Below, in pieces: positions 25,450 to 46,307 of a stretch of DNA of 64,000 nt. Position 1 is the stretch's first letter. The number at the start of each line of letters is the position of its first letter. Made by a program: the position numbers and the translations under genes. The notes under the pieces were generated by a model. The model was not told the DNA's origin. It did no database searches and saw only the letters and a list, made by a program, of their open reading frames with translations. The stretch comes from Pelobacter propionicus DSM 2379. Its GTDB lineage: Bacteria; Desulfobacterota; Desulfuromonadia; Geobacterales; Pseudopelobacteraceae. The stretch spans positions 3,014,001-3,078,000 of the forward strand of contig NC_008609.1 in NCBI RefSeq assembly GCF_000015045.1. Direction: 5' to 3'.

Positions 25450-25495
25450 GTATCGCTCCTGATCCGGCCAGGCCGGAACTAAAAATAGTTTTCGC

Positions 25496-26587: not shown

Positions 26588-26661
26588 GACAACCTCATAT
26601 CTTCCTGCGCTGGACCAACCAGCCGGCCGGTTCCCAAAGCAGACACCCCGTGATCAGCGAC

Positions 26662-26898
26662 TCAGGCCGAAGCTGTTGCGGACTCGGGTTTCATCTCTTT
26701 CATCAACTCCAGGGTGATCAGCGCCTCCTTCTCATCCATCCTGGAAATGACGAAACCTGCATGGACGACCACATAGTCTCCCACCCCGATCTCCTCGCCA
26801 ATGATCATAAGGCTTGCCTCACGCTTGACCCCGTCGATCTCGGCCACGATGGTATCGCCATCAATGCTTAACACCCGCATCGGTATTGCCAGACACAT
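26662..26898 (-). CDS. hypC: Hydrogenase maturation chaperone HypC
   Basis: 78 residues. MCLAIPMRV is the diagnostic N-terminus: after Met removal Cys2 holds the iron being assembled and the protein then carries it to the large-subunit precursor. GDYVVVHAGFVISRMDEKEA is the conserved C-terminal helix region. Sole HypC-type gene in the window, so it would serve both hydrogenase copies. Lies between hypF (68 bases upstream) and hypD. Confidence 0.97.
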   Translation of the reverse strand: MCLAIPMRVLSIDGDTIVAEIDGVKREASLMIIGEEIGVGDYVVVHAGFVISRMDEKEALITLELMKEMKPESATASA

Positions 26899-26966
26899 AA
26901 CTGTTCACCATATCCTGTCGTCAAAAATAGGAAAGAGACCGACCTGGTCCCTCCCGGTCACGCAAC

Positions 26967-29309
26967 TCAGCGGAGCATTTCCAGCTCAGTCGAGCGTTCC
27001 GCTTCCCTCCGCATGCACCCCGCAATGACCGCCTGCCCCAGGGCCAGCCCCCCGTCACCGGGTGGAACCAGGCGATGGGTAAACACCTGAAAATCAAGCT
27101 CCGCAAGCCTGTTGAGTGTCCCCTCTACCAGCAGTTTGTTCTGAAAAACACCCCCCGACAGGACCACGCGATTGAGGCCGTTCCTGCAGCGAATCCGTTC
27201 ACACATGCCTGCCGTTGCCGCGGCCATGCTGTTATGAAAGCAGCGGGCCATGATGGCACGGGGTACTCCAAGGGCCAGATCCTTCAGTAGCTCAACCAGT
27301 GCGGGGCGCATATCGAGAATCAGCCTGCCAGCAAACTCCTCGACGGAAAAGGGGTACTCCCGGTCGGTCACTGCTGATTCAGCCAGCGCTTCCAGTTCGA
27401 TGGCCGCCTGTCCTTCGTAGGTTATCCTACTTCTCACGTCCAGCAGGGCGGAGACGGCATCAAAGAGCCGGCCGCAGCTGGAGGTGAGCGGCGCGTTGAT
27501 GCCGCGCTCCAGCATTCTCTGCAGCAGGTGCCGCTCCTGGGCGGAAACATCCCCCAGGCAGGAAAGTTGCAGGGCAGCGAAGTCCCTCTCTCCGGCATCG
27601 AAGAGATAGGAAAGCGCCATGCGATACGGCTCGCGCACCGCCGCGTCTCCCCCCGGCAGGGCAACCAGGCGCATGTGGCCCTGGCGCCGGAACTCCCGGT
27701 AGCCGCCCACGAGAAACTCCCCTCCCCAGACAGTACCGTCCAACCCGTAGCCGGTGCCGTCAAAGATGACGCCGATGGCTTCTCCCTCCAGGCTGTTTTC
27801 CGCCATACAGGAGGCCATGTGGGCATGGTGGTGCTGAACGGCGACCCGGGGCAGATCCGGCAGATCAACGGCATAGGCGGTGGAGAGGTAGTCGGGGTGC
27901 AGATCATGGGCCACCAGGGCCGGGCGTATCTCCAGAATCTTCTCCAGATGGGCGACGCACTCCTCCAGGGAGCGAAGCGTGGCGCTGTTCTTCAGGTCGC
28001 CGATGTGCTGGCTCAGGAACGCCCGGTCGTTGCGGGTGAGGCAGACCGTTGCCTTGAGTTCTCCACCCACCGCCAGAACGGATGGCTGCTCCGCCGGCAG
28101 CCTGATCCCCCGCGGCACATAGCCCCGGGAGCGGCGCAGGAAAAGTGGGCTGCCGTGAAACACCCTGATGATCGAGTCGTCGCTGCGTACGTGGATCTCC
28201 CTGTCGTGAGCGAGGAACAGGTCGGCGATGCCGGCAAGCTGTTCACGTGCCTCGCTATCCCGATAGGCTATGGGTTCATCCGACTGATTGCCGCTGGTCA
28301 TGACGAGGGCGATGAAGTTGTTCCTGAGCAGGAGATGGTGCAACGGCGTGGAGGGGAGCATCACACCAAAATAACCGTTGTCGGGCGCAACCAACGACGC
28401 AATGGGAGTGGCTTCCCGCTTGGGCAGGAGCACGATGGGTCGCTCCGGACCGCCCAGGAGGCGCTGCTCCGTTTCGCTGCAACGGGCAAAGGAGTCGATT
28501 CGAGCCAGGTCAGGGGCCATTATGGCGAATGGCTTTTCATCACGCTGCTTTCGCCGACGCAGGTTCGCCACAGCTTCTTCATTGCATGCGTCCACCGCCA
28601 GATGATAACCGCCGATTCCCTTGACAGCCAGGACCCCACCACGCTGCAGAAGGTTGACAGCGGCAAGCAGAACGTCGTGACCACGACCACCTCCACCCTG
28701 CATCACCTCACGGCCAGAACTGTCGAGCAGCGCGATGCGCGGGCCGCAGACCGGACAGGCATTGGGTTGGGCATGGAAACGGCGGTTGGCGGGGTCTTCG
28801 TACTCGGCACGGCAGTCGGCGCACATGGCGAACCGTTCCATGGTGGTGAAACGGCGGTCGTAGGGTATGGCGGTGATGATGGAGTAGCGGGGACCGCAGT
28901 TGGTGCAGTTGATGAACGGATAGAGGTAGCGGCGGTCGCGGGGGTCGAAGAGTTCCCTTAAGCAGTCTTCGCAGACGTCGCAGTCAGGTGATATCTGGGC
29001 ACTGTTCTCCCCACCGCTGCTGGGGAGTATTGAAAACCCCCCCTCCCCTGTAACGGAGATCGTCTCGCTGTGGACGGAACTTATGGCGGCCAGAGGCGGT
29101 GCCTGCGCGCTTATGTCACGCAGAAAGGCGGACAGGTGCGACCGTTCCCCCTCCCCTTCCAGGAGCACTCCAGCCGGGGTATTCCGTACCCATCCGCTGA
29201 TACCGTAGCGTGCGGCCAATCGGTAGATAAACGGGCGAAACCCAACGCCCTGCACAATCCCTTCGACCTCGACCCTGATCCTCTCAACCGGACCGTTGGA
29301 CACAAACAT
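26967..29309 (-). CDS. hypF: Carbamoyltransferase HypF
   Basis: 780 residues from the ATG at 29309; the longer frame to 29465 overlaps hypB. HypF makes carbamoyl-AMP from carbamoyl phosphate and transfers the group to HypE. Domains in order: acylphosphatase-like (VEGIVQGVGFRPFIYRLA, ~10-95), two CxxC-x18-CxxC zinc fingers (CDVCEDC … CTNC and CADC … CPVC, ~110-185), a YrdC-like adenylate-forming domain (~200-390) and a Kae1-like carbamoyltransferase domain containing VQHHHAHMASCMAE and later VVLSGGVFQNKLL. Size and domain order are canonical. Confidence 0.97.
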   Translation of the reverse strand: MFVSNGPVERIRVEVEGIVQGVGFRPFIYRLAARYGISGWVRNTPAGVLLEGEGERSHLSAFLRDISAQAPPLAAISSVHSETISVTGEGGFSILPSSGGENSAQISPDCDVCEDCLRELFDPRDRRYLYPFINCTNCGPRYSIITAIPYDRRFTTMERFAMCADCRAEYEDPANRRFHAQPNACPVCGPRIALLDSSGREVMQGGGGRGHDVLLAAVNLLQRGGVLAVKGIGGYHLAVDACNEEAVANLRRRKQRDEKPFAIMAPDLARIDSFARCSETEQRLLGGPERPIVLLPKREATPIASLVAPDNGYFGVMLPSTPLHHLLLRNNFIALVMTSGNQSDEPIAYRDSEAREQLAGIADLFLAHDREIHVRSDDSIIRVFHGSPLFLRRSRGYVPRGIRLPAEQPSVLAVGGELKATVCLTRNDRAFLSQHIGDLKNSATLRSLEECVAHLEKILEIRPALVAHDLHPDYLSTAYAVDLPDLPRVAVQHHHAHMASCMAENSLEGEAIGVIFDGTGYGLDGTVWGGEFLVGGYREFRRQGHMRLVALPGGDAAVREPYRMALSYLFDAGERDFAALQLSCLGDVSAQERHLLQRMLERGINAPLTSSCGRLFDAVSALLDVRSRITYEGQAAIELEALAESAVTDREYPFSVEEFAGRLILDMRPALVELLKDLALGVPRAIMARCFHNSMAAATAGMCERIRCRNGLNRVVLSGGVFQNKLLVEGTLNRLAELDFQVFTHRLVPPGDGGLALGQAVIAGCMRREAERSTELEMLR

Positions 29310-29329
29310 CACTCGCTTTCGTTCGCTGC

Positions 29330-30160
29330 TCAGGCCTTTTTCGATCGAGCGTCTGCCATCCCCTGGGAGAGCCATGCGTACCATCGATCCATCCCCTCCC
29401 CGGTCTGGGCGGAAACTTCGATGATGGTGATGTTCGGATTGACCCTGAGAGCCATTTCGCGGCATTTATCCACTTCAAAGGTCAGATGGGGAAGCAGATC
29501 GATCTTGTTGAGGATCATGACATCGGCGGCATGGAACATGTGCGGATATTTGAGCGGCTTGTCCTCCCCCTCGGTAACGGAGAGAACAGCCACCTTGTGA
29601 TTCTCACCCAGATCGAAGGAGGCGGGGCAAACCAGGTTGCCCACGTTTTCGATAAACAGCAGATCCAAGCTGGCAAGATCGAAGTCAGCGGCGGCGTGCA
29701 GGATCATGTGGGCATCCAGATGGCAACCGGCACCGGTATTGATCTGCTTAACCTGCACGCCGGTGGCTGCGATCCGTTGCGCATCGTTATCGGTCTGCTG
29801 ATCCCCCTCGATCACGGCGCAGCGCACTTTTCCGCCCAATTCCCTGAGGGTGCGCTCCAGAAGGGTCGTTTTTCCGGAACCGGGTGAACTGACCAAGTTG
29901 AGGGTAAAGATCCCCTGACTGGCGAACAGCAGGCGGTTGGTCGCCGCCAGGCGGTTGTTGCGATCCAGGATATCCGTCTCCACGCTGATCGTGCGCGTCT
30001 GCCCGGCCTGAGAAGGCGTAGGGTGTTCGTGATGATGGTGATGCCCATCTCCGTGGTGATGGTCATCATGGGTATGGGTATGGTCATGGCTATGATCGTG
30101 ACCATGGTCATGGTCGTGGGAATGTTCTCCCACGGTGGGGCAACCGCATGTCGTACACAT
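29330..30160 (-). CDS. hypB: Nickel-binding GTPase HypB
   Basis: 276 residues. Delivers nickel to the hydrogenase large subunit. The N-terminus has CTTCGCP, a CxxCGC nickel site, followed by a very histidine-rich stretch (~residues 13-46, dominated by HD/HH repeats) that may store nickel. The GTPase domain has SSPGSGKTTLLERTL (P-loop), DLLFIENVGNLVCPASFDLGE with the dimer-interface metal Cys, and NKIDLLPHL. Starts five bases after the hypA stop. Confidence 0.97.
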   Translation of the reverse strand: MCTTCGCPTVGEHSHDHDHGHDHSHDHTHTHDDHHHGDGHHHHHEHPTPSQAGQTRTISVETDILDRNNRLAATNRLLFASQGIFTLNLVSSPGSGKTTLLERTLRELGGKVRCAVIEGDQQTDNDAQRIAATGVQVKQINTGAGCHLDAHMILHAAADFDLASLDLLFIENVGNLVCPASFDLGENHKVAVLSVTEGEDKPLKYPHMFHAADVMILNKIDLLPHLTFEVDKCREMALRVNPNITIIEVSAQTGEGMDRWYAWLSQGMADARSKKA

Positions 30161-30164
30161 AACG

Positions 30165-30497
30165 CTACACTACCTCCAGTTCTTTTACCCGAAGTTCCTC
30201 ACCAAAGAGAATCTCGATATCGAAACCACCACATTCGGGGCATGAGTCGTGATAAGCCCGGGCGCCGAACAGAGCCTTGCAGCCGTTGCAGCGAACCTGG
30301 GGTTCGATGATAATAATTTTCAGGCTGGCACCCTCCAGAAGGGTACCCTTGGTGCATGAATCGAAGCAGAATTCGAGGGCGCCGGGGACGATGCCGGACA
30401 GTTCACCCACGTCCAGGGTTACGGACGTCACCCGACTCCCGGCAGCATTCTGCTCACAGATCGACACCACGTTCTTCATAATGGTCAACTCATGCAT
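30165..30497 (-). CDS. hypA: Hydrogenase nickel-insertion protein HypA
   Basis: 110 residues from the ATG at 30497, chosen because HypA must begin MHEL (His2 is a nickel ligand) and GAGGA lies upstream; two TTG codons precede it in frame. The zinc site CNGCKALF … CPECGGF is intact. First gene of the hyp operon, 155 bases downstream of the hairpin that ends hydrogenase copy A; the gap 30498-30651 shows no further gene and presumably holds the hyp promoter, which I could not place convincingly. Confidence 0.96.
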   Translation of the reverse strand: MHELTIMKNVVSICEQNAAGSRVTSVTLDVGELSGIVPGALEFCFDSCTKGTLLEGASLKIIIIEPQVRCNGCKALFGARAYHDSCPECGGFDIEILFGEELRVKELEVV

Positions 30498-30651
30498 CAA
30501 CAATCCTCGCTGTCAGGGTACTGCTTCCGTTACGCACCGCATAGACCGGTTGCGACGTTTCAGTGGCTGATAGTCTCACATTTTACGCCTGAGCTAAAGC
30601 ACTTTTTAAAGCAGGCACGTCCGAACCACCTTCAATCGCGTAGCCGCTAAA

Positions 30652-30708
30652 ACACGAACCCCCTTGTGTATCGTGTGCTGCCGATCGATACGCAAGGGGG
30701 CGTGTGTT
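30652..30708 (-). terminator. Hairpin at the end of hydrogenase operon copy A
   Basis: CCCCCTTGTGTATCG at 30659-30673 pairs with 30686-30700 (15 pairs, one G-U), extended by an imperfect ACACG/CGTGT arm. In the direction of transcription it is followed by TTCGTGTTTTAGC, a weak T-tract. It sits just after the small-subunit stop at 30728 and separates the operon from hypA. Confidence 0.6.
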
Positions 30709-30727
30709 CCGGGATGTAACGTTCCGG

Positions 30728-31267
30728 TCAGATCTTCTGCATCTTCTCGTAGATCACCAGGTCACCCGAGCCTCTGAGGTCTTCGGGATGGTACCGCGGC
30801 ATGGGGAAGTCGCTTACCTGTTTGAATTCCACCGGCGCGGTCTTCTTGTCCACAAGCCCCGCGGCTACGGCTACGCCCCAGATGATGGCTTCAGGACGCG
30901 GAGGGCAGCCGGGAACGTAGTAGTTGACCGGGATCAGTTTCTCCACCGGGCCGTGCACGGCGTAGCTGTCGTGCCAGATGCCGCCGCCGCAGGCGCAGGA
31001 GCCGATGGCAAACACAAGCTTGGGGCCGGGCATGGCGGCGTAGGCGCGCTGGAGTGCCTTGCCGGTGGAGCGCATGGCAGGCCCCTGGCAGAGCATGACG
31101 TCGGCGTGACGGGGGGAACCAACCAGTTTGATCCCGAAACGCTCTACGTCATAGTACGGGGTGAGGACGTTCAAAACTTCGATGTCGCAGCCGTTGCACC
31201 CGCCGCTGTTGGCGTGGTAAACCCACAGCGAACGACCGAACACTTTCTGGCAAAGATTCTTTAGCAT
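30728..31267 (-). CDS. [NiFe]-hydrogenase small subunit, NuoB/HyfI-type (copy A)
   Basis: 179 residues. Electron-transfer subunit next to the NiFe site, homologous to NuoB of complex I. The proximal [4Fe-4S] cluster ligands are visible as GGCNGCD (Cys24, Cys27), GSCAC (Cys91) and PGCPPRPE (Cys121). No Tat signal or medial/distal clusters, as expected for group 4 membrane-bound enzymes rather than periplasmic hydrogenases. Last gene of the operon, seven bases after the NuoI-type gene. The same product is encoded at 40646-41185. Confidence 0.9.
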   Translation of the reverse strand: MLKNLCQKVFGRSLWVYHANSGGCNGCDIEVLNVLTPYYDVERFGIKLVGSPRHADVMLCQGPAMRSTGKALQRAYAAMPGPKLVFAIGSCACGGGIWHDSYAVHGPVEKLIPVNYYVPGCPPRPEAIIWGVAVAAGLVDKKTAPVEFKQVSDFPMPRYHPEDLRGSGDLVIYEKMQKI

Positions 31268-31274
31268 GACGGCG

Positions 31275-31802
31275 TTAGCCCTCCAGTTCTATGGTGAGGT
31301 CTTCGAGGATCGGCTGGCCGGGGAGGTAGGCCGTTGATTTGAAGACCCAGCGGTCGTTGGCAAGGTCGTCCGCGCGGTACCCTTTCATCTTCAGCGCTTC
31401 CAGCGGTGACTGCCCCTTGAAGCAGCGGCCGCAGCGCTGGCAGGTGCTCATGAACAGTTCCAGACGCTGCTGAAGATCGGTGATCTTGTTGGTGCCGTTC
31501 TCGAACTCGTGGCTCATGGTGATGGCGTCTTCAGGGCAGACGTCGGCACAGCGACCGCAGTAGGTGCAGCGGCGGCCAAGGTAGTGCAGGATCCGGATCT
31601 CCTGGCAGATGTCGTTGATCAGGATCTCACGGGACGGGCAGTTGTTGGCGCAACCGGCGCAGCCGATGCATTTGACGTGGTCCCAGATCGGACGGCCGCG
31701 GAAGCGTTCGGGCACGGGCTTGGACTCAAAGGGGTACGGCATGGTTACCCGGCCGGCGTTCAGGCAGATCGCGGTCTCTTTCAGTTTGCTCAGTATGGAC
31801 AT
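31275..31802 (-). CDS. Two-[4Fe-4S] ferredoxin-like hydrogenase subunit, NuoI/HyfH-type (copy A)
   Basis: 175 residues. Cys45/48/51/55 (CIGCAGCANNCP) and Cys79/82/85/89 (CTYCGRCADVCP) form two classical [4Fe-4S] sites that link the electron-input module to the small subunit. A third short cluster, CQRCGRC (121-127), is extra compared with plain NuoI and may bind another centre or zinc. Peripheral membrane-arm subunit. Stop and start flank the NuoH-type gene by 13 bases. Confidence 0.9.
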   Translation of the reverse strand: MSILSKLKETAICLNAGRVTMPYPFESKPVPERFRGRPIWDHVKCIGCAGCANNCPSREILINDICQEIRILHYLGRRCTYCGRCADVCPEDAITMSHEFENGTNKITDLQQRLELFMSTCQRCGRCFKGQSPLEALKMKGYRADDLANDRWVFKSTAYLPGQPILEDLTIELEG

Positions 31803-31815
31803 ACATTCACCTCTA

Positions 31816-32742
31816 TCAGAAGCCGTAGCTGGCGGCGGCCAGGGTTACCAGGGATACGGCCAGCATGATCGCGAAGTACCGGATGGCCTGGTCGATGCGG
31901 TAGCGGGCGTGGGTGGCGGCGATGGTGGTTACCAGAAGCACCATGGCGAAGACCTTGACCCAGAACAGGATGAAGCTGATCGGAGCGGCCAGACCGGAAC
32001 CCCAGGGGACGAACAGGGAGACAAACAGGGCGCTGTACACCACCAGTTTGGCCATGTTGGCGTACTGGAACAGGGCCAGTTTGGGACCGGAGTATTCCAC
32101 CATGGCCCCTTCCATGATCTCTGTTTCAGCTTCGGAGATGTCGAAGGGCGCACGACCCACGAAGGCCTGGAAGGCCAGCAGCATGATCACCAGCATGGCG
32201 AAGCCGGACAGCGCCATGCCGTTTGCGCCGTAGACCGAGCCGGAGAGCACTTCGTCCAGGTTGAAACTCCCCTTGGCCAGAGCGCCCATGACGATGGCGA
32301 CGGCGAACAGCGGCTCAAGGGTGATCATGCACATCATCTCGCGGTTGATGCCGATCAGAGAGTAGGTGGAGCCGGAGGCCAGGCCGGCCAGCAGGGTGCA
32401 GATGCCGGCAAGGGTCATCAGCAGGATCAAAAGCAGAACGTCGCCGGAGCCGGACAGCGGGGCCTTGAAGCCCATGGGCACCAGGCAGGCGATGGTCAGC
32501 ATGACCGCCAGGGGAAGATAGGCGGCGAAACGCTGCAGCACGGGGGCTTCACCGGATTCGATGTCGTCCTTGCCCAACAGTTTCAGGATATCCAGGTAGG
32601 GCTGGTTGATCGGAGGTCCCTGACGCGACTGGATACGGGCCGTTACCTTTCGAAGTACGCCCTGAAAGAGCGGAGCGAGCGCTAACACCAGGATGACGTT
32701 TACCAGGACGCCCACTATCATGTTCATGACGTTACTCTCCAC
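31816..32742 (-). CDS. Membrane subunit, NuoH/HyfC-type (copy A)
   Basis: 308 residues with about eight hydrophobic helices. NuoH-family blocks include ARIQSRQGPPINQPYLDILKL near residue 35 and the cytoplasmic acidic loop APFDISEAETEIMEGAMVEYSG, which connects the redox arm to ion translocation. Anchors the hydrogenase to the inner membrane. Nine bases separate it from the NuoCD-type gene before it. No sign of degeneration. Confidence 0.92.
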   Translation of the reverse strand: MESNVMNMIVGVLVNVILVLALAPLFQGVLRKVTARIQSRQGPPINQPYLDILKLLGKDDIESGEAPVLQRFAAYLPLAVMLTIACLVPMGFKAPLSGSGDVLLLILLMTLAGICTLLAGLASGSTYSLIGINREMMCMITLEPLFAVAIVMGALAKGSFNLDEVLSGSVYGANGMALSGFAMLVIMLLAFQAFVGRAPFDISEAETEIMEGAMVEYSGPKLALFQYANMAKLVVYSALFVSLFVPWGSGLAAPISFILFWVKVFAMVLLVTTIAATHARYRIDQAIRYFAIMLAVSLVTLAAASYGF

Positions 32743-32751
32743 AACTACCTC

Positions 32752-34425
32752 CTAGCCTTTCCGTGATCTGGACAACGAGAGAAGTTCGGCTTTTGTCCAG
32801 CTCTTGCGTGCGCCGGTCCTGATGTCGATGGTTTCCATGCGGTCGGTGCAGGACATGCACGGGTCGATGCCACCTAAGGAGATCTGCATGTCGGCTATGC
32901 GCTGGTCCTTGATCATGGCCGGGATACCCTGCAGGTTCTGATAGGTCGGAGCTCGGGCACGCCAGCGACGAGGACGGTTGTCGTCACCGGTGATGGCGAA
33001 GTGGTGGCTCTCACCGCGCGGGGCTTCGATGGAGGTGTAGCCAACCCGGCCAGCAGGAAGCTCCGTGGTGATGTCCGCTACCAGCGGGCCCTGCGGCATC
33101 TTGTCAAAGCACTGGCGGATGATGTTGATCGATTCGAAGACTTCCAGCATGCGCACCACCACACGGCCCCAGACGTCGGCGGTGTTGTGGGTGATGACTT
33201 TGAAGTCCACCCGGTCGTAGGCGGCGTAGGGGTGATCACGACGGGCGTCGATGTCAACGCCGCCCCCACGGGCGACCGGACCTACCAGGCCCATCTCTTT
33301 GCACAGCGCCTTGTCGGCCATGCCGACGCCGCTGGTACGGGCCATGATGTTCTTGTCCTTGCTGACGGCGGCGACGACCTGACGCCATTCGCTCTCCAGC
33401 TTGTCAAGGACGGCGCGGGTCTCGGCGATCAGCTCAGGCGTGAAGTCCCAGCGAACGCCACCGATGATGCCAAGGCCGTAGGTCTTGCGGTTGCCGGTGA
33501 TCTTCTCGGCCAACCACATGATCGGTTCACGGATGCGCCAGGCCTGCATGAACAGGGTGTCGAAGCCCACCAGGTGGCAGGCAAGGCCGACCCACATGGG
33601 ATGGCTGTGCAGACGCTCGATCTCAAGCATGATGGTGCGGATGAATTCGGCCCGCGGAGGAACGATGACCCCGGCCCCGTTCTCTACGGCCTGACAGAAA
33701 GCCAGGCTGTGCACGCAGCCGCAGATGCCGCAGATGCGCTCGGCCATCATGGGCACGTCGTTGTAGCCAAGTACCGATTCGGACAGCTTCTCGATGCCCC
33801 GGTGGACCATGAAGCCGCGGTATTCGCAGCCACGCACGAATTCGCCATCCACGTAGAGGCGGAAGTGCTCGGGCTCGTCAAGCGTCGGATGGAACGGGCC
33901 GAAGGGGACGGCGGTGCACCCGGGAGGGGTCTCGTCGAAGTCGAACTCGCGCTCTTCGTCGTACCCTTCCGGAATCTTGTTCCAGGCAAAGTCTTTCCGT
34001 AAGGGATGGTGACCATCGGGCCAGGCGTCGGGAAGAACCAGCCGCTTCGGATAGGGGTGACCCACAGGCTCGATGCCCAACAGGTCCTTGAGTTCGCGCT
34101 CGGCCCAGTTGGCAGCGGGAATGATCCCGGAGATGCTGTCGATGCGCGGGTTCTCACCCGGAAGCTGGCAGATGATGCTGAACAGGATCTTTTCCTTGTC
34201 AAAGGCGAACTGGTGGAAGACAAGGAATTTGCCGCTGTACGGACGGTCGTCAGAGCCTATGCTGATGACGTAGCGGGCATCCATGTCGCGGAAGATGTAC
34301 TGGCAGATCGGTTTGACGCTGGCCGGGTCGATGTAGACCAACAGACGCATGTCGTTGACTACGTCGGCCTGCTGGATGGCGGAGCCGAATTTGTCTTTCA
34401 GTTGCTGGAGCTTTTTACTTACCAT
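32752..34425 (-). CDS. [NiFe]-hydrogenase large subunit, fused NuoCD/HyfG-type (copy A)
   Basis: 557 residues from the ATG at 34425, two bases after the upstream stop; the frame open to 34476 overlaps that gene. Residues ~1-170 are a NuoC-like domain, the rest a NuoD-like catalytic domain. Both nickel-binding pairs are present: RICGICG (Cys232, Cys235) and DPCMSC (Cys523, Cys526), so unlike complex I or the Cys-less Ehr-type relatives this should be a true hydrogenase. A 28-residue tail follows Arg529 of DPCMSCTDR; in HycE-like proteins such tails are cut off by a HycI-type protease after nickel insertion. Copy A has no protease gene of its own. Confidence 0.93.
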   Translation of the reverse strand: MVSKKLQQLKDKFGSAIQQADVVNDMRLLVYIDPASVKPICQYIFRDMDARYVISIGSDDRPYSGKFLVFHQFAFDKEKILFSIICQLPGENPRIDSISGIIPAANWAERELKDLLGIEPVGHPYPKRLVLPDAWPDGHHPLRKDFAWNKIPEGYDEEREFDFDETPPGCTAVPFGPFHPTLDEPEHFRLYVDGEFVRGCEYRGFMVHRGIEKLSESVLGYNDVPMMAERICGICGCVHSLAFCQAVENGAGVIVPPRAEFIRTIMLEIERLHSHPMWVGLACHLVGFDTLFMQAWRIREPIMWLAEKITGNRKTYGLGIIGGVRWDFTPELIAETRAVLDKLESEWRQVVAAVSKDKNIMARTSGVGMADKALCKEMGLVGPVARGGGVDIDARRDHPYAAYDRVDFKVITHNTADVWGRVVVRMLEVFESINIIRQCFDKMPQGPLVADITTELPAGRVGYTSIEAPRGESHHFAITGDDNRPRRWRARAPTYQNLQGIPAMIKDQRIADMQISLGGIDPCMSCTDRMETIDIRTGARKSWTKAELLSLSRSRKG

Positions 34426-34427
34426 GG

Positions 34428-36329
34428 TTAGTCTTCCTTGATGCGTGTCTGGGGACGCGGATTGCCGCCGAGCCACCCGAAGCAGCGCTTGATTTCACCG
34501 TAGAAGTTGGAGGCGGCATAACGATAGCACTCTTCTTCGCGGGCATACCCGCACAGCCAGGCGTCGCCGCTCTTGCGGGTGGAACCGCCCTGCTTGGAGA
34601 AGGTGTACACGATGACGAAGGCTACTGCCAGGACGATAGCGATAACGATCGGCACGTACAGGGCGCCGCCGCCGATGGCGAAGAGACCCGTGGTGGCGCC
34701 GGCGGACATGGTGTTGGCGTCGGCCAGTTTCTCGGCAAAGCCCTGGCGGCTGGTGTTAAGCACCTGGCCCAGAACCTGGTACACGGCGCCGGGGGCAAGG
34801 CCGATGACGATGCACAGAAGCGCCATGATCAGCTGCGGAAGCTGCTGGGTCATGCCCACTTCAAGATTCCCCTGCTTGGCGGCCTGCTGTTTGACCACCG
34901 TGCTCTGGCGGGACAAAAAGGCGACGCCGAAGAATTTGATGTACATGGCAAGCGTCATGGCGCTGGTGAGGATGGCGATGATGGCGCAGACGGCAAGGTA
35001 TTTGGCGCTCGTGCTCCCCTGGATGGTGGCGACGTAGATGCTCCATTTGCTGACAAAGCCGTTTAACAGCGGTACACCGGCGATGCCGAAGGAGGCGATC
35101 AGGACGGCAAAGCCGGTGACCGGCATGTACTTCCACAGGCCGCCCATTTTGTTTAAGTCCTGGGTGCCGGTTGCCTGGTACAGGGAGCCGGCGCTGAAGA
35201 ACAGAAGACCCTTGAAGATGCCGTGGTTGATGGCGTGAAGCAGGCCGCCGCAGAAGGCGATGGCAGCCAGAGCAAGCAGTCTGTTGTCACCGGAGGGGAC
35301 CAGGGCGACGCAGGCGCCAAGGGCAAGGATGATATAGCCCAGCTGACCGACGGAGCTGAAGGCCAGGAGCCGTTTGGTGTCGTCCTGTTTCATACCCTGC
35401 ATGGTGCCGGTGAACAGGGTGATGGTGCCCAGGATGGCCAGGGCCATGCCCCACCTGCTCATGTCGTACTGGCCAAGCACGTCGGCCGGTACCAGCCACA
35501 GGAAGGTCCTCATCAGGCCGTAGACGCCGGTCTTGCTCATGACGCCGGAGATGAGAGCGGTTACCGGGGACGGAGCAGCGGCATAGGCGTCGGGTACCCA
35601 CAGCTGACCGAAGGGCCACATGCCGACTTTAATGCCGAAGCCAACAAGGAACAGGGCCAGGCAGCCAGTGAGCGCACCCGGGTTGGTGGCGACCAGAGCC
35701 GGGATGCCTTCGGAAAGAACGTCGAAGTCGTAGGCAAGGCCAGGCTCGGCCGGGCCGCCGGCAATCATGGCGGCGCCGGCCATGGCGGCTACCATGGCGG
35801 CTTCCATGAAGACAAGGTACTTGAAGGCAGCGCCCTTGATGCCGGGCTTCTCACTCTCGAACAGCATCAGGATGAAGCTGGGGATGGTCATCAGCTGCCA
35901 GAAGGCGCAGAAGAACCACATGGTGTCGGTGATGGAGAGGATGCCGTACATGCCGCCCACGAACAGAAGCAGGAACGGATGATACATCGCCGCGCTCTTG
36001 GTGGGGAATTTCTCCACATGGACGATGGAGTACAGGGCCGCACAGACCCCGATCAGCACCGCAAGAAGCAAAAAGATGGAGCTCAGGCCGTCAACGTACA
36101 GGCGCAGCGTGTGACCACCCAGGGTGTAAAATGCCTCGGGATGGTGCGGGTTGGCAGGACCGCTGGTCAGTACCTGCACCGCCCGCGGCACGATCAAGAC
36201 ACCGCTGGCAACCATGGTCAGGAAGGAAAGCCAGCCGGACAGGCTCTTGCTCATGGAGAGCAAAAGCGTCACTACGGCACCGGCGGCGCAGATGCCGATC
36301 GATAAGAGTACTGCTTGTTCAGGAGTCAT
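34428..36329 (-). CDS. Ion-translocating membrane subunit, NuoL/HyfB-type (copy A)
   Basis: 633 residues, highly hydrophobic with 14 or more predicted helices. The antiporter-like core is recognisable from WVPDAYAAAPSPVTALISGVMSKTGVYG and KRLLAFSSVGQLGYIILALG, including the lysines and His typical of proton channels. It is the only antiporter-like subunit in the operon (no NuoM or NuoN type), as in Ech-like and short group 4 complexes. The polar C-terminus (KRCFGWLGGNPRPQTRIKED) lies in the cytoplasm. First of the five core hydrogenase genes; upstream of it in copy A only 51 bases separate it from the flavoprotein gene because the protease gene is missing. Confidence 0.9.
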   Translation of the reverse strand: MTPEQAVLLSIGICAAGAVVTLLLSMSKSLSGWLSFLTMVASGVLIVPRAVQVLTSGPANPHHPEAFYTLGGHTLRLYVDGLSSIFLLLAVLIGVCAALYSIVHVEKFPTKSAAMYHPFLLLFVGGMYGILSITDTMWFFCAFWQLMTIPSFILMLFESEKPGIKGAAFKYLVFMEAAMVAAMAGAAMIAGGPAEPGLAYDFDVLSEGIPALVATNPGALTGCLALFLVGFGIKVGMWPFGQLWVPDAYAAAPSPVTALISGVMSKTGVYGLMRTFLWLVPADVLGQYDMSRWGMALAILGTITLFTGTMQGMKQDDTKRLLAFSSVGQLGYIILALGACVALVPSGDNRLLALAAIAFCGGLLHAINHGIFKGLLFFSAGSLYQATGTQDLNKMGGLWKYMPVTGFAVLIASFGIAGVPLLNGFVSKWSIYVATIQGSTSAKYLAVCAIIAILTSAMTLAMYIKFFGVAFLSRQSTVVKQQAAKQGNLEVGMTQQLPQLIMALLCIVIGLAPGAVYQVLGQVLNTSRQGFAEKLADANTMSAGATTGLFAIGGGALYVPIVIAIVLAVAFVIVYTFSKQGGSTRKSGDAWLCGYAREEECYRYAASNFYGEIKRCFGWLGGNPRPQTRIKED

Positions 36330-36380
36330 TATTGCACCTCTGCGAATGGCCCAAAGCCATGCACTCGTAGTCGGGAAACG

Positions 36381-37229
36381 TTAGATATCTTCCCCGAGCG
36401 TTTTCAGCTGTTCGTAGGTAAATACCGGGCCGTCGACGCAGACGTAGGAGACACCCACGCAGCAGTGGCCGCATTTGCCAACGCCGCATTTCATGTAGCG
36501 CTCCAGGGTCGAGACGATGTTGCTCTCCTTGAAGCCAAGGTCCAGGAGGTCCTTGATGACGAAGCGGAACATGATCGGCGGACCGCACACGAACGCTACC
36601 GTGTTGTCCACGTTCACCGTGACGCCAGGTTTCTTGAACAGGGAGCCGACCACGCCCACGTTACCGGTGTAACCGGGGCTGGCGCTGTCAACGGTGAGAT
36701 AGAATTCCGCCCCACCCTTCTCCCAGACCTTCAGGTCTTCGGCGTACATCAGCGTCTCGGGGTTCTTGGCGCCGTAGAAGATCTGCACGCTCTTGAACTT
36801 GTCACGGTTGGCAAGGATATAGACGATGGTGGAACGCAGCGGGATCAGGCCGATACCGCCGGCGACGACGACGATGTTCTTGCCGTAGTACGATTCCATG
36901 GGGAAGCCGTTGCCAAAGGGACCTCTCAGCGCGAAACGGTCGCCCGGCTTGTACTCCTGGAAGGCGTTGGAGCAGACCCCTACCCTTCTCAAGGTGAAGA
37001 AGACTTTACCTTCAGTGGGAGAAGGCGGAAGCGAGAGGGTGAATTCGCCCTTGCCCGGGATGGTGACCAGGCAGAACATGCCAGGACCGAAGGTCGAAAG
37101 AAACTGTTTCTGATCCTCGGGGTTCTCCAGGTGCCAATGAACCGTTTTGACTTCCGGGATCTCGTCGTTCAAGGCGTCGACGATGGCGACCTTCGGCAGA
37201 TAGATGTTATCAGCGGGTGATTGGTTCAT
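36381..37229 (-). CDS. FAD/NAD(P)-binding 2Fe-2S reductase subunit, sulfhydrogenase-gamma-like (copy A)
   Basis: 282 residues. Ferredoxin-NADP-reductase fold: GDRFALRGPFGNGFP binds FAD, VVVAGGIGLIPLRS and AFVCGPPIMFRFV bind NAD(P). The C-terminus CGVGKCGHCCVG … C is the [2Fe-2S] motif of dihydroorotate-dehydrogenase electron-transfer subunits and HydG of archaeal sulfhydrogenase. Likely exchanges electrons with NAD(P)H and passes them to the 4Fe-4S protein encoded next, whose start overlaps this region (ATGA at 37226-37229). Copy B differs only by one silent base. Confidence 0.85.
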   Translation of the reverse strand: MNQSPADNIYLPKVAIVDALNDEIPEVKTVHWHLENPEDQKQFLSTFGPGMFCLVTIPGKGEFTLSLPPSPTEGKVFFTLRRVGVCSNAFQEYKPGDRFALRGPFGNGFPMESYYGKNIVVVAGGIGLIPLRSTIVYILANRDKFKSVQIFYGAKNPETLMYAEDLKVWEKGGAEFYLTVDSASPGYTGNVGVVGSLFKKPGVTVNVDNTVAFVCGPPIMFRFVIKDLLDLGFKESNIVSTLERYMKCGVGKCGHCCVGVSYVCVDGPVFTYEQLKTLGEDI

Positions 37230-38308
37230 TGCTTGTCACTCTCCGTTGTGGCGCGGCGGATCATTTCCACGACGCTCGGCATTCCTATGTCGCCGTGGCA
37301 GACCACGGCGCAGCGACCGCAGCCGATACAGGCGACCGACAGCTCGCGCTGGATGAAGTAGTGGTGCAGTTTCCGGAAGAAACGACGGTTGCGACGGTCA
37401 TGCACGGCCTGGCGCGGGTTGTGGCCACCGGCCATTCTCGTAAAGCCGCTGAAGGCGCAGGCGTCCCACACTTTCAAGCGCTCGATCTCCGTCGGACCGA
37501 TCTTACGGTCGGTGACGGTGAAACAGGTGCAGGCGGGGCAGACAAAGGTGCAGCCACCGCATTCGACACAGCGGTTGCCGATCTCGGTCCAGGTCTTGTT
37601 GCTTACCCGGTTGCCGGTGACGTAGCGTACGGCACCGGAGAACCAGGTGGTGGCGTCTTTCAGCTCTGTGCGGGCCGCTTCCAGCACTTCGGCCCGTTTC
37701 GTTACGTGGCCAGCCGTGCACTTCTTGTAGAAGGGGGCCGCAAACAGTGCCTCGCCCGCCGGACTGCCGGCTACGGCCATGTATTCGTCGTTGCCCAGGT
37801 CCATGAGCTGAAGGTCGAAGTTCTCACGGGCGGCAGGGCCGGAGTCGGTGCACAGGCAGAAGCACTGCTTGCCTATGTCCAGGTCCTTGTCCGTGCAGGC
37901 GAAGTTGACGATGAACAGGTTGTTCCGTTTCGCCTCGTGGTAGCCATCCTTGAAGTCACGCCCCAGGAAGAAGCGGTCCAGGTGGTAGATGCCACGCACG
38001 TCGCAGGAGCGCACGCCGAACAGGGCGCGCTTGGGAGCGTCCACGGTGGGCTCGAAGCTCAGGCTGTTCTTGGATTTGTCTTCGTGAATCTTCATGGTCC
38101 GTTCCATGTGCGGGAACACGAACCGTTTGGCCGGATAGTAGGGGTTGGGAACGTGCAACTGGACCTGGTCCCGGTTGGCGTCGGTGACTACGTCAAAGGC
38201 GCTGTCGCTACCGCGACCGAGGAAGGGGGCCAGGACCTCAAAGCCCTGTCCGCGCAGCTGATCGATTACGTTCAGCACATCGGCGCGGCTCAAGATACGT
38301 GCTTTCAT
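37226..38308 (-). CDS. 4Fe-4S electron-transfer subunit, sulfhydrogenase-beta-like (copy A)
   Basis: 360 residues. Resembles HydB of sulfhydrogenase and the A subunit of anaerobic sulfite reductase. The N-terminal ~210 residues include FGVRSCDVRGIYHLDRFF and a Cys group QCFCLCTDSGPAA; the C-terminal half has CVECGGCTFVCPACTC (~250) and CIGCGRCAVVCHGDIG (~331), two [4Fe-4S] sites. Overlaps its neighbours by four bases on each side (stop 37226-37228 against start 37229; start 38308 against stop 38305), so all three input-module proteins are translationally coupled. Confidence 0.85.
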   Translation of the reverse strand: MKARILSRADVLNVIDQLRGQGFEVLAPFLGRGSDSAFDVVTDANRDQVQLHVPNPYYPAKRFVFPHMERTMKIHEDKSKNSLSFEPTVDAPKRALFGVRSCDVRGIYHLDRFFLGRDFKDGYHEAKRNNLFIVNFACTDKDLDIGKQCFCLCTDSGPAARENFDLQLMDLGNDEYMAVAGSPAGEALFAAPFYKKCTAGHVTKRAEVLEAARTELKDATTWFSGAVRYVTGNRVSNKTWTEIGNRCVECGGCTFVCPACTCFTVTDRKIGPTEIERLKVWDACAFSGFTRMAGGHNPRQAVHDRRNRRFFRKLHHYFIQRELSVACIGCGRCAVVCHGDIGMPSVVEMIRRATTESDKQ

Positions 38309-40311
38309 GCGACCTCCGTTTCTACACGAACAGCCAGGAACCGGGCGTCATCCGCACCGCGCATCGCCTGCATCTGGCTCAGCTCCTGGTAGGGTACAAA
38401 TACCGTGCCCCGCTTGACCTCGGGGGTGACGCGGGCAACGGTTACGGCGCAGCCGGAGCCGCCGCAGAGTTTGATCTTCTGCTTGTCCCGGATCTTCATC
38501 TCCTTGGCGTCGTCAGCATTGATCTCGACGAACCCTTGCGGATAGTCCAGGAGCATTACCCGGTATTCACGCTTTAAGATCTCGCTGTGGGCGATGAGGA
38601 CGTTCTGGTTCCAGTAGTAGCTGGAGTTGCCCAGTACCAGGGTGAAGGGGAAGTCCGTGCTTAAGGCGGCGGGAGCCGAAGGCTTGGCGACCGGTACAAA
38701 TTTGAAGCTGCCGGAACCGCCGCTAAACAGGATCGGCGTGCCGTGGGGCGCGTCCTTGGTGCAGGGCCACTGACGGCCGAATTCAACACCCAGGCTGTCG
38801 TAGTCGGCGGCGCTGTAGGAAGGTACGGCCCGGCCGATCTCGGCCATGACCGCTGCCGCGTCGGCATAGTTCCAGTCACTTCCCAGTGCCTTGGCCACCT
38901 GGGCGATCTGCTGCCAGGCAGGGGTGATCCCCTGAGGCGCAGGAACGGCCTGGCGGGCGAGCTGGATGCGACGCTCGGTGCTGGTGAAGCTGACCGTCTC
39001 TTCACCGAAGGCGGTGGTGGGAAGGACGACGTCGGCCAGTTTGGCGGTTTCAGTCAAAAACAGGTGCTGGACGATGACCAGCTCGCACTCTTCCAAAGCC
39101 TTGGCGGCGCTGCCCAGGGCGGCGGTGTTGACCGGGTCGTAACGGTCCAGCCAGACCGCCTTGATTTTACCCTTGGCACGGTCTTTCAGCACGGCTGCGG
39201 CCGTTACGCCGGGGGTAGCCGGAAGCTTGGCGCCATACACGCTTTCAAGCTCGCTCCCCGCGGAGAGCGGACGGTAGCCGGGAAGGCGGTCGGGAAGCAT
39301 GCCCATGTCGCAGGTGCCCTGAAGGTTGTTGTGTTCGGCCAGCGGGAAGATGCCAGAGCCGACTTTGCCGATCTGGCCGGCCAGAAGCGCCAGGTTGACG
39401 GCCGCCCTGATGGAGTCGGAGTCACGGGTCTCGGCGCCGGTGGAGTACAGGATGGCCGAGGATTTTGATTTGGCGTAGGCTACGGCTACGGCTTCGATCT
39501 GTTCGGCAGGAACGCCGCAGGTCTGGGCGGCGGCGATCAGGTCGTACTGCTTGGCCTGGGCCAGAAAGGCATCGTAGTCAGAACAGTTGGCCTTGATGAA
39601 GGCAAGGTCCATCAGGCCGTGGTCCACGATCAGTTTGGCCATGGCGCCGTAGAGAACGGCTTCCGTGCCCGGGTTGATCTGCAGAAACCAGTCGGCGTTC
39701 TCGGCAACACGCTGACGACGCTCGCCGATGACCACCAGCTTGGCGCCGCTGAGTCTGGCGCGCAGCACCGTGCCCGCTACGGTGGGAAGCTGACGGGCAA
39801 GGTCAACGCCGTCGACGATGATCAGGTCGCTCTGCTCCAGGTCGTCGATGGAGTTGGTGGCGGCGGCAACACCCAGCATGTCCAGAAGGACGTTGACCGA
39901 GTTGTTGCTGTACACGCCGGCGCCATGGTCCACGTTGTTGGTGCCGATGACGCTGCGCGCAAGCTTCTGAAGAAGGTAGCTCTCTTCGTTGCAGCAACGC
40001 GGAGAGTTCAGAAAGGCGATCGAGTCGGGACCGGAGGCGCCCTTGATCTCCTTCAGACGTGAGGCGATGAACTCATACGCCTCCTGCCACGTCACTTCTT
40101 CGAGCTGGCCGTTCTTCCTGAGAAGCGGTGCCTTCAGGCGGTCGGGGGAGCTGGCAACTTCATGAACGTGCCAGCCGCGGATGCAGATTTTGCCCTTGTT
40201 TGCGGGGTGCGATACGCTGGGGTAGACGCCAGCAATGCGTTCAGGAGTAGTCTCAAGATAGAGACCACACCCTACGCCGCAAAAGGTGCAGGTGGTTAGA
40301 CTTTGAGCCAT
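38305..40311 (-). CDS. Molybdopterin-oxidoreductase-family subunit lacking formate dehydrogenase catalytic residues (copy A)
   Basis: 668 residues, close to the length of FdhF. The N-terminal [4Fe-4S] motif CTFCGVGC … KICIRG is intact and the whole protein aligns with formate dehydrogenase H (for example GTNNVD near 123-128, NNLQGTCDMG near 328-337). At the catalytic positions it differs: the Sec/Cys of FdhF aligns without gaps to Tyr134, the next His to Ser135, and the conserved Arg to Ala325. It should therefore not oxidise formate in the usual way; it may act as an electron relay like NuoG or on another substrate. First gene of the operon. Annotation as formate dehydrogenase would be misleading. 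Confidence 0.85.
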   Translation of the reverse strand: MAQSLTTCTFCGVGCGLYLETTPERIAGVYPSVSHPANKGKICIRGWHVHEVASSPDRLKAPLLRKNGQLEEVTWQEAYEFIASRLKEIKGASGPDSIAFLNSPRCCNEESYLLQKLARSVIGTNNVDHGAGVYSNNSVNVLLDMLGVAAATNSIDDLEQSDLIIVDGVDLARQLPTVAGTVLRARLSGAKLVVIGERRQRVAENADWFLQINPGTEAVLYGAMAKLIVDHGLMDLAFIKANCSDYDAFLAQAKQYDLIAAAQTCGVPAEQIEAVAVAYAKSKSSAILYSTGAETRDSDSIRAAVNLALLAGQIGKVGSGIFPLAEHNNLQGTCDMGMLPDRLPGYRPLSAGSELESVYGAKLPATPGVTAAAVLKDRAKGKIKAVWLDRYDPVNTAALGSAAKALEECELVIVQHLFLTETAKLADVVLPTTAFGEETVSFTSTERRIQLARQAVPAPQGITPAWQQIAQVAKALGSDWNYADAAAVMAEIGRAVPSYSAADYDSLGVEFGRQWPCTKDAPHGTPILFSGGSGSFKFVPVAKPSAPAALSTDFPFTLVLGNSSYYWNQNVLIAHSEILKREYRVMLLDYPQGFVEINADDAKEMKIRDKQKIKLCGGSGCAVTVARVTPEVKRGTVFVPYQELSQMQAMRGADDARFLAVRVETEVA

Positions 40312-40392
40312 GCGTCACTCCCGTTTCAACCCAATCCTGTCGCCGGGTGGGAAAGTCGGAATACACCGAGGAATTCCATAAGTTACGGATAT

Positions 40393-40626: not shown

Positions 40627-40645
40627 CCGGGATGTAACGTTCCGG

Positions 40646-41185
40646 TCAGATCTTCTGCATCTTCTCGTAGATCACCAGGTCACCCGAGCCTCTGAGGTCT
40701 TCGGGATGGTACCGCGGCATGGGGAAGTCGCTTACCTGTTTGAATTCCACCGGCGCGGTCTTCTTGTCCACAAGCCCCGCGGCTACGGCTACGCCCCAGA
40801 TGATGGCTTCAGGACGCGGAGGGCAGCCGGGAACGTAGTAGTTGACCGGGATCAGTTTCTCCACCGGGCCGTGCACGGCGTAGCTGTCGTGCCAGATGCC
40901 GCCGCCGCAGGCGCAGGAGCCGATGGCAAACACAAGCTTGGGGCCGGGCATGGCGGCGTAGGCGCGCTGGAGTGCCTTGCCGGTGGAGCGCATGGCAGGC
41001 CCCTGGCAGAGCATGACGTCGGCGTGACGGGGGGAACCAACCAGTTTGATCCCGAAACGCTCTACGTCATAGTACGGGGTGAGGACGTTCAAAACTTCGA
41101 TGTCGCAGCCGTTGCACCCGCCGCTGTTGGCGTGGTAAACCCACAGCGAACGACCGAACACTTTCTGGCAAAGATTCTTTAGCAT
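40646..41185 (-). CDS. [NiFe]-hydrogenase small subunit, NuoB/HyfI-type (copy B)
   Basis: Protein identical to the product of 30728-31267 (179 residues, Cys24/27/91/121 for the proximal cluster). Terminal gene of the copy B operon. Confidence 0.9.
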   Translation of the reverse strand: MLKNLCQKVFGRSLWVYHANSGGCNGCDIEVLNVLTPYYDVERFGIKLVGSPRHADVMLCQGPAMRSTGKALQRAYAAMPGPKLVFAIGSCACGGGIWHDSYAVHGPVEKLIPVNYYVPGCPPRPEAIIWGVAVAAGLVDKKTAPVEFKQVSDFPMPRYHPEDLRGSGDLVIYEKMQKI

Positions 41186-41192
41186 GACGGCG

Positions 41193-41720
41193 TTAGCCCT
41201 CCAGTTCTATGGTGAGGTCTTCGAGGATCGGCTGGCCGGGGAGGTAGGCCGTTGATTTGAAGACCCAGCGGTCGTTGGCAAGGTCGTCCGCGCGGTACCC
41301 TTTCATCTTCAGCGCTTCCAGCGGTGACTGCCCCTTGAAGCAGCGGCCGCAGCGCTGGCAGGTGCTCATGAACAGTTCCAGACGCTGCTGAAGATCGGTG
41401 ATCTTGTTGGTGCCGTTCTCGAACTCGTGGCTCATGGTGATGGCGTCTTCAGGGCAGACGTCGGCACAGCGACCGCAGTAGGTGCAGCGGCGGCCAAGGT
41501 AGTGCAGGATCCGGATCTCCTGGCAGATGTCGTTGATCAGGATCTCACGGGACGGGCAGTTGTTGGCGCAACCGGCGCAGCCGATGCATTTGACGTGGTC
41601 CCAGATCGGACGGCCGCGGAAGCGTTCGGGCACGGGCTTGGACTCAAAGGGGTACGGCATGGTTACCCGGCCGGCGTTCAGGCAGATCGCGGTCTCTTTC
41701 AGTTTGCTCAGTATGGACAT
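41193..41720 (-). CDS. Two-[4Fe-4S] ferredoxin-like hydrogenase subunit, NuoI/HyfH-type (copy B)
   Basis: Protein identical to 31275-31802, with the two [4Fe-4S] sites and the extra CQRCGRC group. Spacing to both neighbours is the same as in copy A. Confidence 0.9.
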   Translation of the reverse strand: MSILSKLKETAICLNAGRVTMPYPFESKPVPERFRGRPIWDHVKCIGCAGCANNCPSREILINDICQEIRILHYLGRRCTYCGRCADVCPEDAITMSHEFENGTNKITDLQQRLELFMSTCQRCGRCFKGQSPLEALKMKGYRADDLANDRWVFKSTAYLPGQPILEDLTIELEG

Positions 41721-41733
41721 ACATTCACCTCTA

Positions 41734-42660: not shown

Positions 42661-42669
42661 AACTACCTC

Positions 42670-44343: not shown

Positions 44344-44345
44344 GG

Positions 44346-46247: not shown

Positions 46248-46307
46248 TATTGCACCTCTGCGAATGGCCCAAAGCCATGCACTCGTAGTCGGGAAACGGC
46301 TAAAGAT

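Follow-up and report, generated by a model that had tools for sequence, protein, structure and literature searches.

Complex I can be viewed as a group 4 hydrogenase-like core joined to an NADH arm that contains NuoG, a dead relative of formate dehydrogenase. We analyzed an eight-gene operon of Pelobacter propionicus DSM 2379 that carries a comparable core next to other electron-input genes. The operon runs on the minus strand from position 40311 down to 30728 of a 64,000-nucleotide stretch of the genome (NC_008609.1, positions 3,014,001 to 3,078,000), referred to here as the window and numbered from its first letter. In a literature search that covered mostly titles and the beginnings of abstracts, a comparable gene set was found only in the study of Matheus Carnevali et al. 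(2019; PMC6349859). That study describes an "enigmatic" group 4 hydrogenase region of Saganbacteria RX5A, with antiporter-like subunits, cooF, asrA, asrB, and a molybdopterin oxidoreductase that was called Fdh by hidden Markov models and could not be classified as such by phylogeny. The authors proposed an oxidoreductase module, called the electron donors unknown, and placed relatives of the cluster in Zixibacteria and Omnitrophica. Compared by description only, the RX5A cluster shares with the P. propionicus operon a group 4 hydrogenase, antiporter-like subunits, an asrA/asrB pair, and a molybdopterin protein; it differs in having cooF and, by the wording of the paper, antiporter-like subunits in the plural. 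The texts covered by this search make no mention of this family in Verrucomicrobiota or Acidobacteriota, of the residue losses and the change in transmembrane helix 5 (TM5) described below, or of tandem copies.

The operon also shares parts with better-known enzymes. Its core resembles HycC, HycD, HycE, HycF, and HycG of Escherichia coli formate hydrogenlyase 1 (FHL-1; group 4a), including a NuoC-fused large subunit. In contrast to FHL-1, however, the large subunit lies outside the HycE/HyfG clade, HycB is missing, the FdhA-like protein lacks catalytic residues, a HydB/HydG pair is added, and TM5 of the antiporter subunit carries a glutamine. The beta and gamma subunits of Pyrococcus furiosus sulfhydrogenase I (group 3b; PDB 9nez) are the closest solved relatives of the HydB-like and HydG-like proteins, but in the operon the small and large subunits are of complex I type and the module is joined to a membrane-bound group 4 core. 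With complex I (NuoA-N) the operon shares NuoB-, NuoCD-, NuoH-, NuoI-, and antiporter-type parts and a formate dehydrogenase relative in the electron arm (compare NuoG), whereas it keeps the NiFe ligands, lacks NuoE and NuoF, has one antiporter subunit, and has an FdhA-like protein that scores nearer to Fdh-alpha than to the NuoG model. Two MBH-like enzymes of the same genome, Ppro_0587-0598 and Ppro_3521-3532, are likewise of group 4 and keep the CxxC motifs, but they are reported as 12-subunit enzymes (PMC2669807) and their large subunits lie on a distant branch.

Gene content, class, and distribution of the operon

An earlier note on this DNA had proposed an operon in which a sulfhydrogenase-like flavin module and a pterin-family protein accompany a complex I-like hydrogenase core in the absence of NuoE/NuoF-type subunits. 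All eight open reading frames (ORFs) are present, closely spaced, in the 5′-to-3′ order FdhA-like, HydB-like, HydG-like, antiporter, large subunit, NuoH, Fe-S protein, and small subunit, with 4-base overlaps between the FdhA and HydB genes (38305-38308) and between the HydB and HydG genes (37226-37229). As the note had stated, the ORF lists and Pfam matches of the operon include no NuoE/NuoF-type ORF. Neither do the ORF lists of this copy or of a second, tandem copy of the operon (see below) include a HycB-type polyferredoxin.

The large subunit, in which a NuoC-like part is joined to a NuoD/NiFe domain (Pfam gave the 30-kDa and 49-kDa complex I domains and a NiFe match), had HycE as its best PDB match (7z0s_E, 3.9e-125). 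The metal-binding CxxC pairs C249/C252 and C540/C543 are present in all 12 family sequences; hence, an energy-converting hydrogenase-related enzyme without a NiFe site was ruled out. Both CxxC pairs, a NuoB-type small subunit, and a NuoH-type membrane subunit are the features of a group 4 [NiFe] hydrogenase. In a 32-row tree of large subunits, which lacks Ech, Coo, and archaeal Mbh rows and for which the program warned of long branches meeting, the 12 family members formed one clade (100/100) and five HycE/HyfG-type rows formed another (100/100). The family clade was also separate from the Thermodesulfovibrio group, the Chloroflexi group, and the MBH-like enzymes. Left out of this tree were L027 (frameshifts), L037 (partial), L035 (ORF below 500 amino acids [aa]), L040, and Nuo subunits. 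This phylogeny, which the earlier note had suggested as a check, placed the large subunit in the family clade, outside the HycE/HyfG clade of group 4a formate hydrogenlyases.

The HydB-like and HydG-like proteins matched NCBIfam models of sulfhydrogenase and AsrAB subunits, all with scores below the model cutoffs; for the HydG-like protein, these models were cytochrome-c3 hydrogenase gamma, AsrB, ShyC, and HydG. Their best PDB matches were the beta and gamma subunits of P. furiosus sulfhydrogenase I (9nez_B, 1.1e-30, and 9nez_C, 3.1e-50, respectively). The HydG-like protein has NAD-binding and DHODB 2Fe-2S domains and aligns with sulfhydrogenase gamma over most of its length. Sixteen cysteines of the HydB-like protein and five of the HydG-like protein (C215, C248, C253, C256, and C264) are invariant in 12 of 12 family sequences. 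We concluded that the pair is a flavin module of the group 3b beta/gamma type, though with NCBIfam scores below the equivalog cutoffs, as had been proposed. No group 3b alpha or delta subunit accompanies it in the operon, where the small and large subunits are of complex I type.

We scanned genome contigs from 84,980 species, with a single genome per species, for the large subunit and found 25 loci. At 11 of these (L013 to L016, L018 to L023, and L027), FdhA, HydB, and HydG genes precede the core in this same order; the loci are titled as Verrucomicrobia/Verrucomicrobiia (seven), Acidobacteria (two), Candidatus Omnitrophota (one), and uncultured bacterium (one). The order in these distant hosts is FdhA, HydB, HydG, HycI, antiporter, large subunit, NuoH, Fe-S protein, small subunit; L019 stops before the small subunit, L020 stops within it, and L027 is frameshifted. 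Contig ends truncate loci L017 and L037, and whole-genome searches located an FdhA-like gene in both genomes. The other twelve loci (L024 to L026 from Chloroflexi; L028 to L036 from Thermodesulfovibrio and its kin) have different gene orders and no FdhA or HydB/HydG match in the sequence examined, which was short for L033 and L035. At a divergent locus, L080 of genome G971, the full eight-gene set is present in unchanged order, with 51% identity for the large subunit, 49% for HydG, 41% for HydB, and 37% for FdhA. The gene-order comparison that the earlier note had called for therefore yielded 11 of 25 loci and L080, a recurrence that ruled out chance juxtaposition. The pairwise distances of seven subunits, compared over the 11 close members, were correlated (r = 0.82 to 0.96), which is supportive only, since shared host descent contributes to the correlation.

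Within the class of the host, 2 of 277 genomes had a large-subunit match at an E value of ≤1e-100 when at most four candidates were scored per genome: the host itself and one genome with a match at 38%, which belongs to the MBH-like type. The rarity of the family in this class suggests that P. propionicus acquired the operon laterally. We also searched 387 genomes of the phylum of G277 and 396 of the phylum of G285 with the FdhA-like protein (E limit, 1e-130; up to three candidates scored in each genome). Close matches appeared only in the two seed genomes; two more genomes of the second phylum, G971 and G931, had matches at 37 to 38%.

The formate dehydrogenase-like protein and the proposed electron route

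The pterin-family protein described in the earlier note is present and has the Pfam domains Molybdopterin, Molybdop_Fe4S4, and Molydop_binding. It scored 547.9 bits with the Fdh-alpha model TIGR01591 (cutoff, 666.25) versus 132.2 bits with the NuoG model, and its closest PDB entries were an F420-dependent formate dehydrogenase (9t1s) and the FdhF of HDCR (7qv7). We compared the FdhA-like proteins of 11 family members with eight formate dehydrogenases, a set that did not include the divergent proteins of G931 and G971. Residues were numbered as in E. coli FdhF, from the alignment after removal of 14 extra N-terminal residues of the extracted sequence, and U140, H141, and R333 were taken to be the catalytic residues. 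The equivalent of U140 is Tyr in 10 of the 11 proteins and His in the other, that of H141 is Ser, Cys, Val, or Arg, and that of R333 is Thr or Ala; formate dehydrogenase residues are thus absent at all three positions in 11/11 members. Direct alignments to 9t1s and 7qv7 gave the same losses. In the divergent proteins of G931 and G971, Gly stands at the selenocysteine position and Thr at the Arg position; the residue after the former is His in G971 and Gln in G931. These losses make formate oxidation by the FdhA-like protein unlikely, and together with the tree they ruled out a formate hydrogenlyase.

The protein has retained much else. Of 96 positions invariant in the eight formate dehydrogenases, family members keep 64 to 69, similar to two nitrate reductases (65 and 64), and 23, including those aligned with U140, H141, and R333, are lost in at least 10 of the 11 members. 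The fold therefore appears to be kept, and perhaps cofactor binding too. The ligands of its N-terminal cluster are conserved, C8, C11, and C15 in 12/12 sequences and C43 in 11/12. A role as Fe-S relay and scaffold, like that of NuoG, is the likeliest. An AlphaFold model built from 11 sequences (mean pLDDT, 61.4) was too weak to use. For a NuoG comparison, the best ORF of one Nuo region scored 25.4 bits over a 99-residue piece; it was not confirmed as NuoG, and its 9 of 96 positions were not used.

The Fe-S protein, for which the closest NCBIfam match was the formate hydrogenlyase Fe-S subunit, has 12 cysteines that are invariant in 12/12 sequences. Eight form two ordinary 4Fe-4S sites. The others, C66 and C121/C124/C127, which HycF and HyfH do not have in that form in the alignment, could hold a third cluster. 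Since the operon encodes no HycB-type protein, the FdhA-like protein may make contact through this extra cluster.

We consider it likely, with some reserve, that the products of the operon make up a single membrane-bound group 4 [NiFe] hydrogenase that is linked to NAD(P)H and in which the FdhA-like protein is a relay. Electrons would be exchanged between NAD(P)H and the FAD in the HydG-like subunit and would travel on through its 2Fe-2S cluster to the clusters of the HydB-like subunit. Next would come the one cluster of the FdhA-like protein, which lacks the catalytic residues of formate dehydrogenases and would serve as a structural relay, and then those of the HycF-like protein, of which there may be three, with the additional one replacing the missing HycB. 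The small-subunit cluster would complete the route to the NiFe site. Complex formation, the order of the relay, the electron carrier, and reversibility are what we infer from the conserved genes and ligands.

Alternative readings and ion coupling

The observations that weigh against this reading come from two divergent genomes and from the antiporter subunit. L080 has no HycI match. In G931 (L079), the FdhA, HydB, HydG, and HycI genes are followed by a truncated antiporter ORF and then by unrelated genes, with no hydrogenase core; the sole large-subunit match of this genome (40%) lies elsewhere. The G931 case may be a broken operon, a misassembled one, or a module that has lost its core. By eye, the antiporter N terminus at 10898-12563 of L079 runs into histidine-kinase-like sequence. 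An arrangement like that of G931 would suit the view that FdhA, HydB, and HydG form a separate soluble enzyme merely cotranscribed with the hydrogenase, and AsrAB/HydBG-type pairs are known in soluble enzymes. However, this view sits poorly with a gene order conserved across large divergence, with an operon that has no HycB-type ORF to feed the hydrogenase, with the four extra family-invariant cysteines of the HycF-like protein, and with the lack of a close free-standing FdhA-like gene in the 387 and 396 sampled genomes; we regard it as very unlikely. A separate enzyme was what the earlier note had named as evidence against its proposal, and the order in 11/25 loci and in L080 and the parallel pairwise distances speak against it.

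The FdhA-like protein might still be a Mo/W enzyme for another substrate, in which case the complex would be a lyase, oxidizing that substrate to release H2, with NAD(P)H as a side input. Nitrate reductases, which retain similar numbers of formate dehydrogenase positions, bind the molybdopterin cofactor, arsenite oxidase functions without a protein ligand to Mo, and the G971 protein keeps a His beside the lost Sec/Cys. We nevertheless consider such an enzyme improbable: no conserved ligand candidate stands at the Sec/Cys position, which is Tyr, His, or (in G931 and G971) Gly, the next residue varies, and the equivalent of FdhF K44 is Arg in 11/11 members. Ferredoxin rather than NAD(P)H could also be the main partner, with HydB/HydG forming a junction that links ferredoxin to NAD(P)H. 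Ferredoxin is the partner of many group 4 hydrogenases, and the extra cysteines of the HycF-like protein could form a cluster at a docking site. The NAD-binding and 2Fe-2S domains of the HydG-like protein and its alignment to sulfhydrogenase gamma over most of its length point to NAD(P)H, however, and we hold a main role for ferredoxin to be unlikely.

The antiporter subunit is single, as the earlier note had it, and of the NuoL type only broadly: it was closest to hydrogenase 4 subunit B (HyfB; NF005086, 350 bits), with 202.4 bits for the best NuoM model and 139.1 for the best NuoL model. Gln145 occupies the column of HycC E135, and this position is Gln in 15/15 family sequences, versus Glu in 7/7 references; the antiporter ORFs of L080 and L079 also have Gln. 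Among NuoL-like ORFs of the collected loci, family members had Gln in 20 of 20, a count that includes repeat copies of the same genes and is not one of independent cases, and others had Glu in 57 of 58, the exception being a short ORF with a doubtful alignment. The family thus departs from ion-pumping complex I-like enzymes in the TM5 glutamate, while lysines K234, K266, and K428 are kept in 15/15 sequences, as are, by eye in the alignment, the acidic stretches of NuoH. The helix numbers of the antiporter residues are presumably TM5, TM7, TM8, and TM12. HycC E135 is the equivalent of NuoM E144, which is essential in complex I, and yet 18 HycC substitutions, including E135A, are stated to be without effect on E. 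coli FHL; in the table of the same paper, H2 production by D354A and E391A is about 55%, and the authors doubt a bioenergetic role (PMC5061711).

Given the TM5 glutamine and the results of the HycC exchanges, pumping can be neither assumed nor excluded; ion coupling through NuoH and one antiporter subunit is possible. The composite might also form without translocating ions, its membrane part being an anchor only, a view put forward for E. coli FHL. The glutamine and the essential role of NuoM E144 fit an anchor, but the kept lysines and NuoH acidic stretches do not, and a second antiporter gene in 4 of the 11 relatives (L014, L015, L016, and L018), 52 to 57% identical to the first, is hard to reconcile with it and argues that the membrane part is more than that. 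We consider a mere anchor possible, if rather doubtful. The second antiporter genes may also represent stepwise growth of the membrane arm. Comparison supports in part the composite enzyme proposed in the earlier note: a sulfhydrogenase-like flavin module and a pterin protein, which proved unsuited to formate, take the place that NuoEF has in complex I. In view of the TM5 glutamine, its ion translocation is no more than possible.

Tandem copies, neighboring genes, and physiological role

The operon is repeated in tandem at 40570-50825 (genes at 40646-50744), which the earlier note does not mention. Positions 30652-36380 equal 40570-46298 exactly (5,729 bp, zero mismatches), and 36381-40392 differs from 46814-50825 at one base, 36663. 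All eight proteins are identical between the copies. The only other difference is a 515-bp gap in copy 1 that removes just the protease gene, which in copy 2 sits between the HydG and antiporter genes. Because a HycI-type ORF occupies the same place in 10 of the 11 full-module relatives (L027 has no HycI match), the gene order of copy 2 is probably the ancestral one, and copy 1 has probably undergone a deletion. The flanks of the two copies differ, and the 177-bp spacer between them has no other match in the host genome. These features and the copy differences speak against an assembly artefact, which is still conceivable from sequence alone. Features of both copies are listed in the table. 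The hyp maturation genes directly downstream of copy 1 are likewise absent from the earlier note. A hairpin at the 3′ end of the repeated unit (−35.6 kcal/mol, z = −4.75; RNA fold of 30640-30727, copy 1) was not among the terminators listed by a simple scan, and simple scans of 30500-41000 gave no excess of promoters (3 versus 2.4 expected) or terminators (9 versus 7.4 expected).

Table. Features of the duplicated hydrogenase operon and adjacent maturation genes (window coordinates)
Feature	Position	Strand	Remarks
hypA, hypB, hypF, hypC, hypD, hypE	24436..30503	-	TIGR00100, 00073, 00143, 00074, 00075, 02124, all above cutoffs
3′ end of duplicated unit with strong hairpin, possible operon end	30652..30727	-	RNA fold
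NuoB/HycG-like hydrogenase small subunit	30728..31267	-	179 aa; PF01058; alignment
NuoI/HycF-like Fe-S protein	31275..31802	-	175 aa; two standard 4Fe-4S sites plus C66, C121/C124/C127
NuoH/HycD-like membrane subunit	31816..32742	-	308 aa; PF00146 3.1e-63; acidic stretches retained (alignment)
NuoCD-type [NiFe] hydrogenase large subunit	32752..34425	-	557 aa from ATG 34425 (574 aa from GTG 34476); C-terminal extension
HyfB/HycC-type antiporter-like membrane subunit	34428..36329	-	633 aa; PF00361; NF005086; Gln145 at TM5 glutamate position
HydG/AsrB-like FAD, NAD(P)H, 2Fe-2S subunit	36381..37229	-	282 aa; PF00175, PF10418; NCBIfam under cutoffs; PDB 9nez_C
HydB/AsrA-like Fe-S subunit	37226..38308	-	360 aa; PF17179; NCBIfam ShyB/HydB/AsrA under cutoffs; PDB 9nez_B
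FdhA-like molybdopterin-family protein	38305..40311	-	668 aa; single N-terminal 4Fe-4S site; PF00384 2.4e-56, PF04879 (Pfam); TIGR01591
Copy 2 small-subunit, Fe-S, NuoH, large-subunit, and antiporter genes	40646..46247	-	proteins identical to copy 1
HycI-type hydrogenase maturation protease, copy 2 only	46308..46811	-	probable TTG start, 167 aa; PF01750 4.2e-18 (longer ORF); TIGR00072
Copy 2 HydG-like, HydB-like, and FdhA-like genes	46814..50744	-	proteins identical to copy 1

Three places of the host contig, near 667, 1742, and 3506 kb (G000:C3), carry NuoD with equal scores, and their NuoD proteins are 27% identical to the large subunit of the operon. P. propionicus has been described as having three virtually identical 14-subunit Nuo copies and two 12-subunit hydrogenases, and the available text names those two and not this operon (Butler et al. 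2009; PMC2669807). With the tandem hydrogenase added to the Nuo copies, this genome seems prone to retaining identical copies of respiratory operons. By our inferred mapping, Ppro_0587-0598 and Ppro_3521-3532 correspond to loci L038 and L039. A 916-aa FdhA ORF at 5421-8168 of L039 (G000:C3, about 3891.4 to 3894.2 kb), beside the MBH-like hydrogenase, keeps the Cys, His, and Arg of formate dehydrogenases, and the genome may hence also encode a formate-linked group 4 hydrogenase. L040 (G000:C3:334000-350000) is an Ehr-like, hydrogenase-related cluster whose large-subunit ORF has no CxxC by pattern search. Elsewhere in the window, the G+C content at 4001-8000 is 0.42 to 0.48 over glycosyltransferase-like ORFs, versus 0.55 to 0.66 in other 2-kb steps; by eye, this is possibly a foreign surface-sugar cluster.

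The H2/H+ potential is close to the NAD(P)H potentials, and the enzyme could run in either direction. At standard state the former is −414 mV (PMC5061711). By fermentation, P. propionicus produces acetate and propionate from 2,3-butanediol, acetoin, lactate, and ethanol (PMC3022650); it lacks Rnf and does not grow in syntrophy (PMC2669807). The suggestion in the earlier note that the enzyme supports reverse electron transfer during syntrophic growth thus found no support. In a fermenter without Rnf, the enzyme could take up H2 into NAD(P)H or release H2 as a redox valve, and we favor either role over syntrophic reverse electron transfer.

The family appears to repeat the complex I-like join with different flavin parts and with the NiFe ligands retained. 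We suggest, tentatively, that it is another complex I-like architecture, in which an NAD(P)H arm came from HydB/HydG and a formate dehydrogenase relative that lost catalysis independently of NuoG, and in which the antiporter subunit works or idles with Gln. If so, it would be a natural experiment on the evolution of the complex I electron arm and of the ion-coupling switch. With its fixed TM5 glutamine, the family allows a stringent test of the residues that complex I-like pumps require, and, since P. propionicus is cultured and has two copies of the operon, the electron donor and ion coupling are testable.

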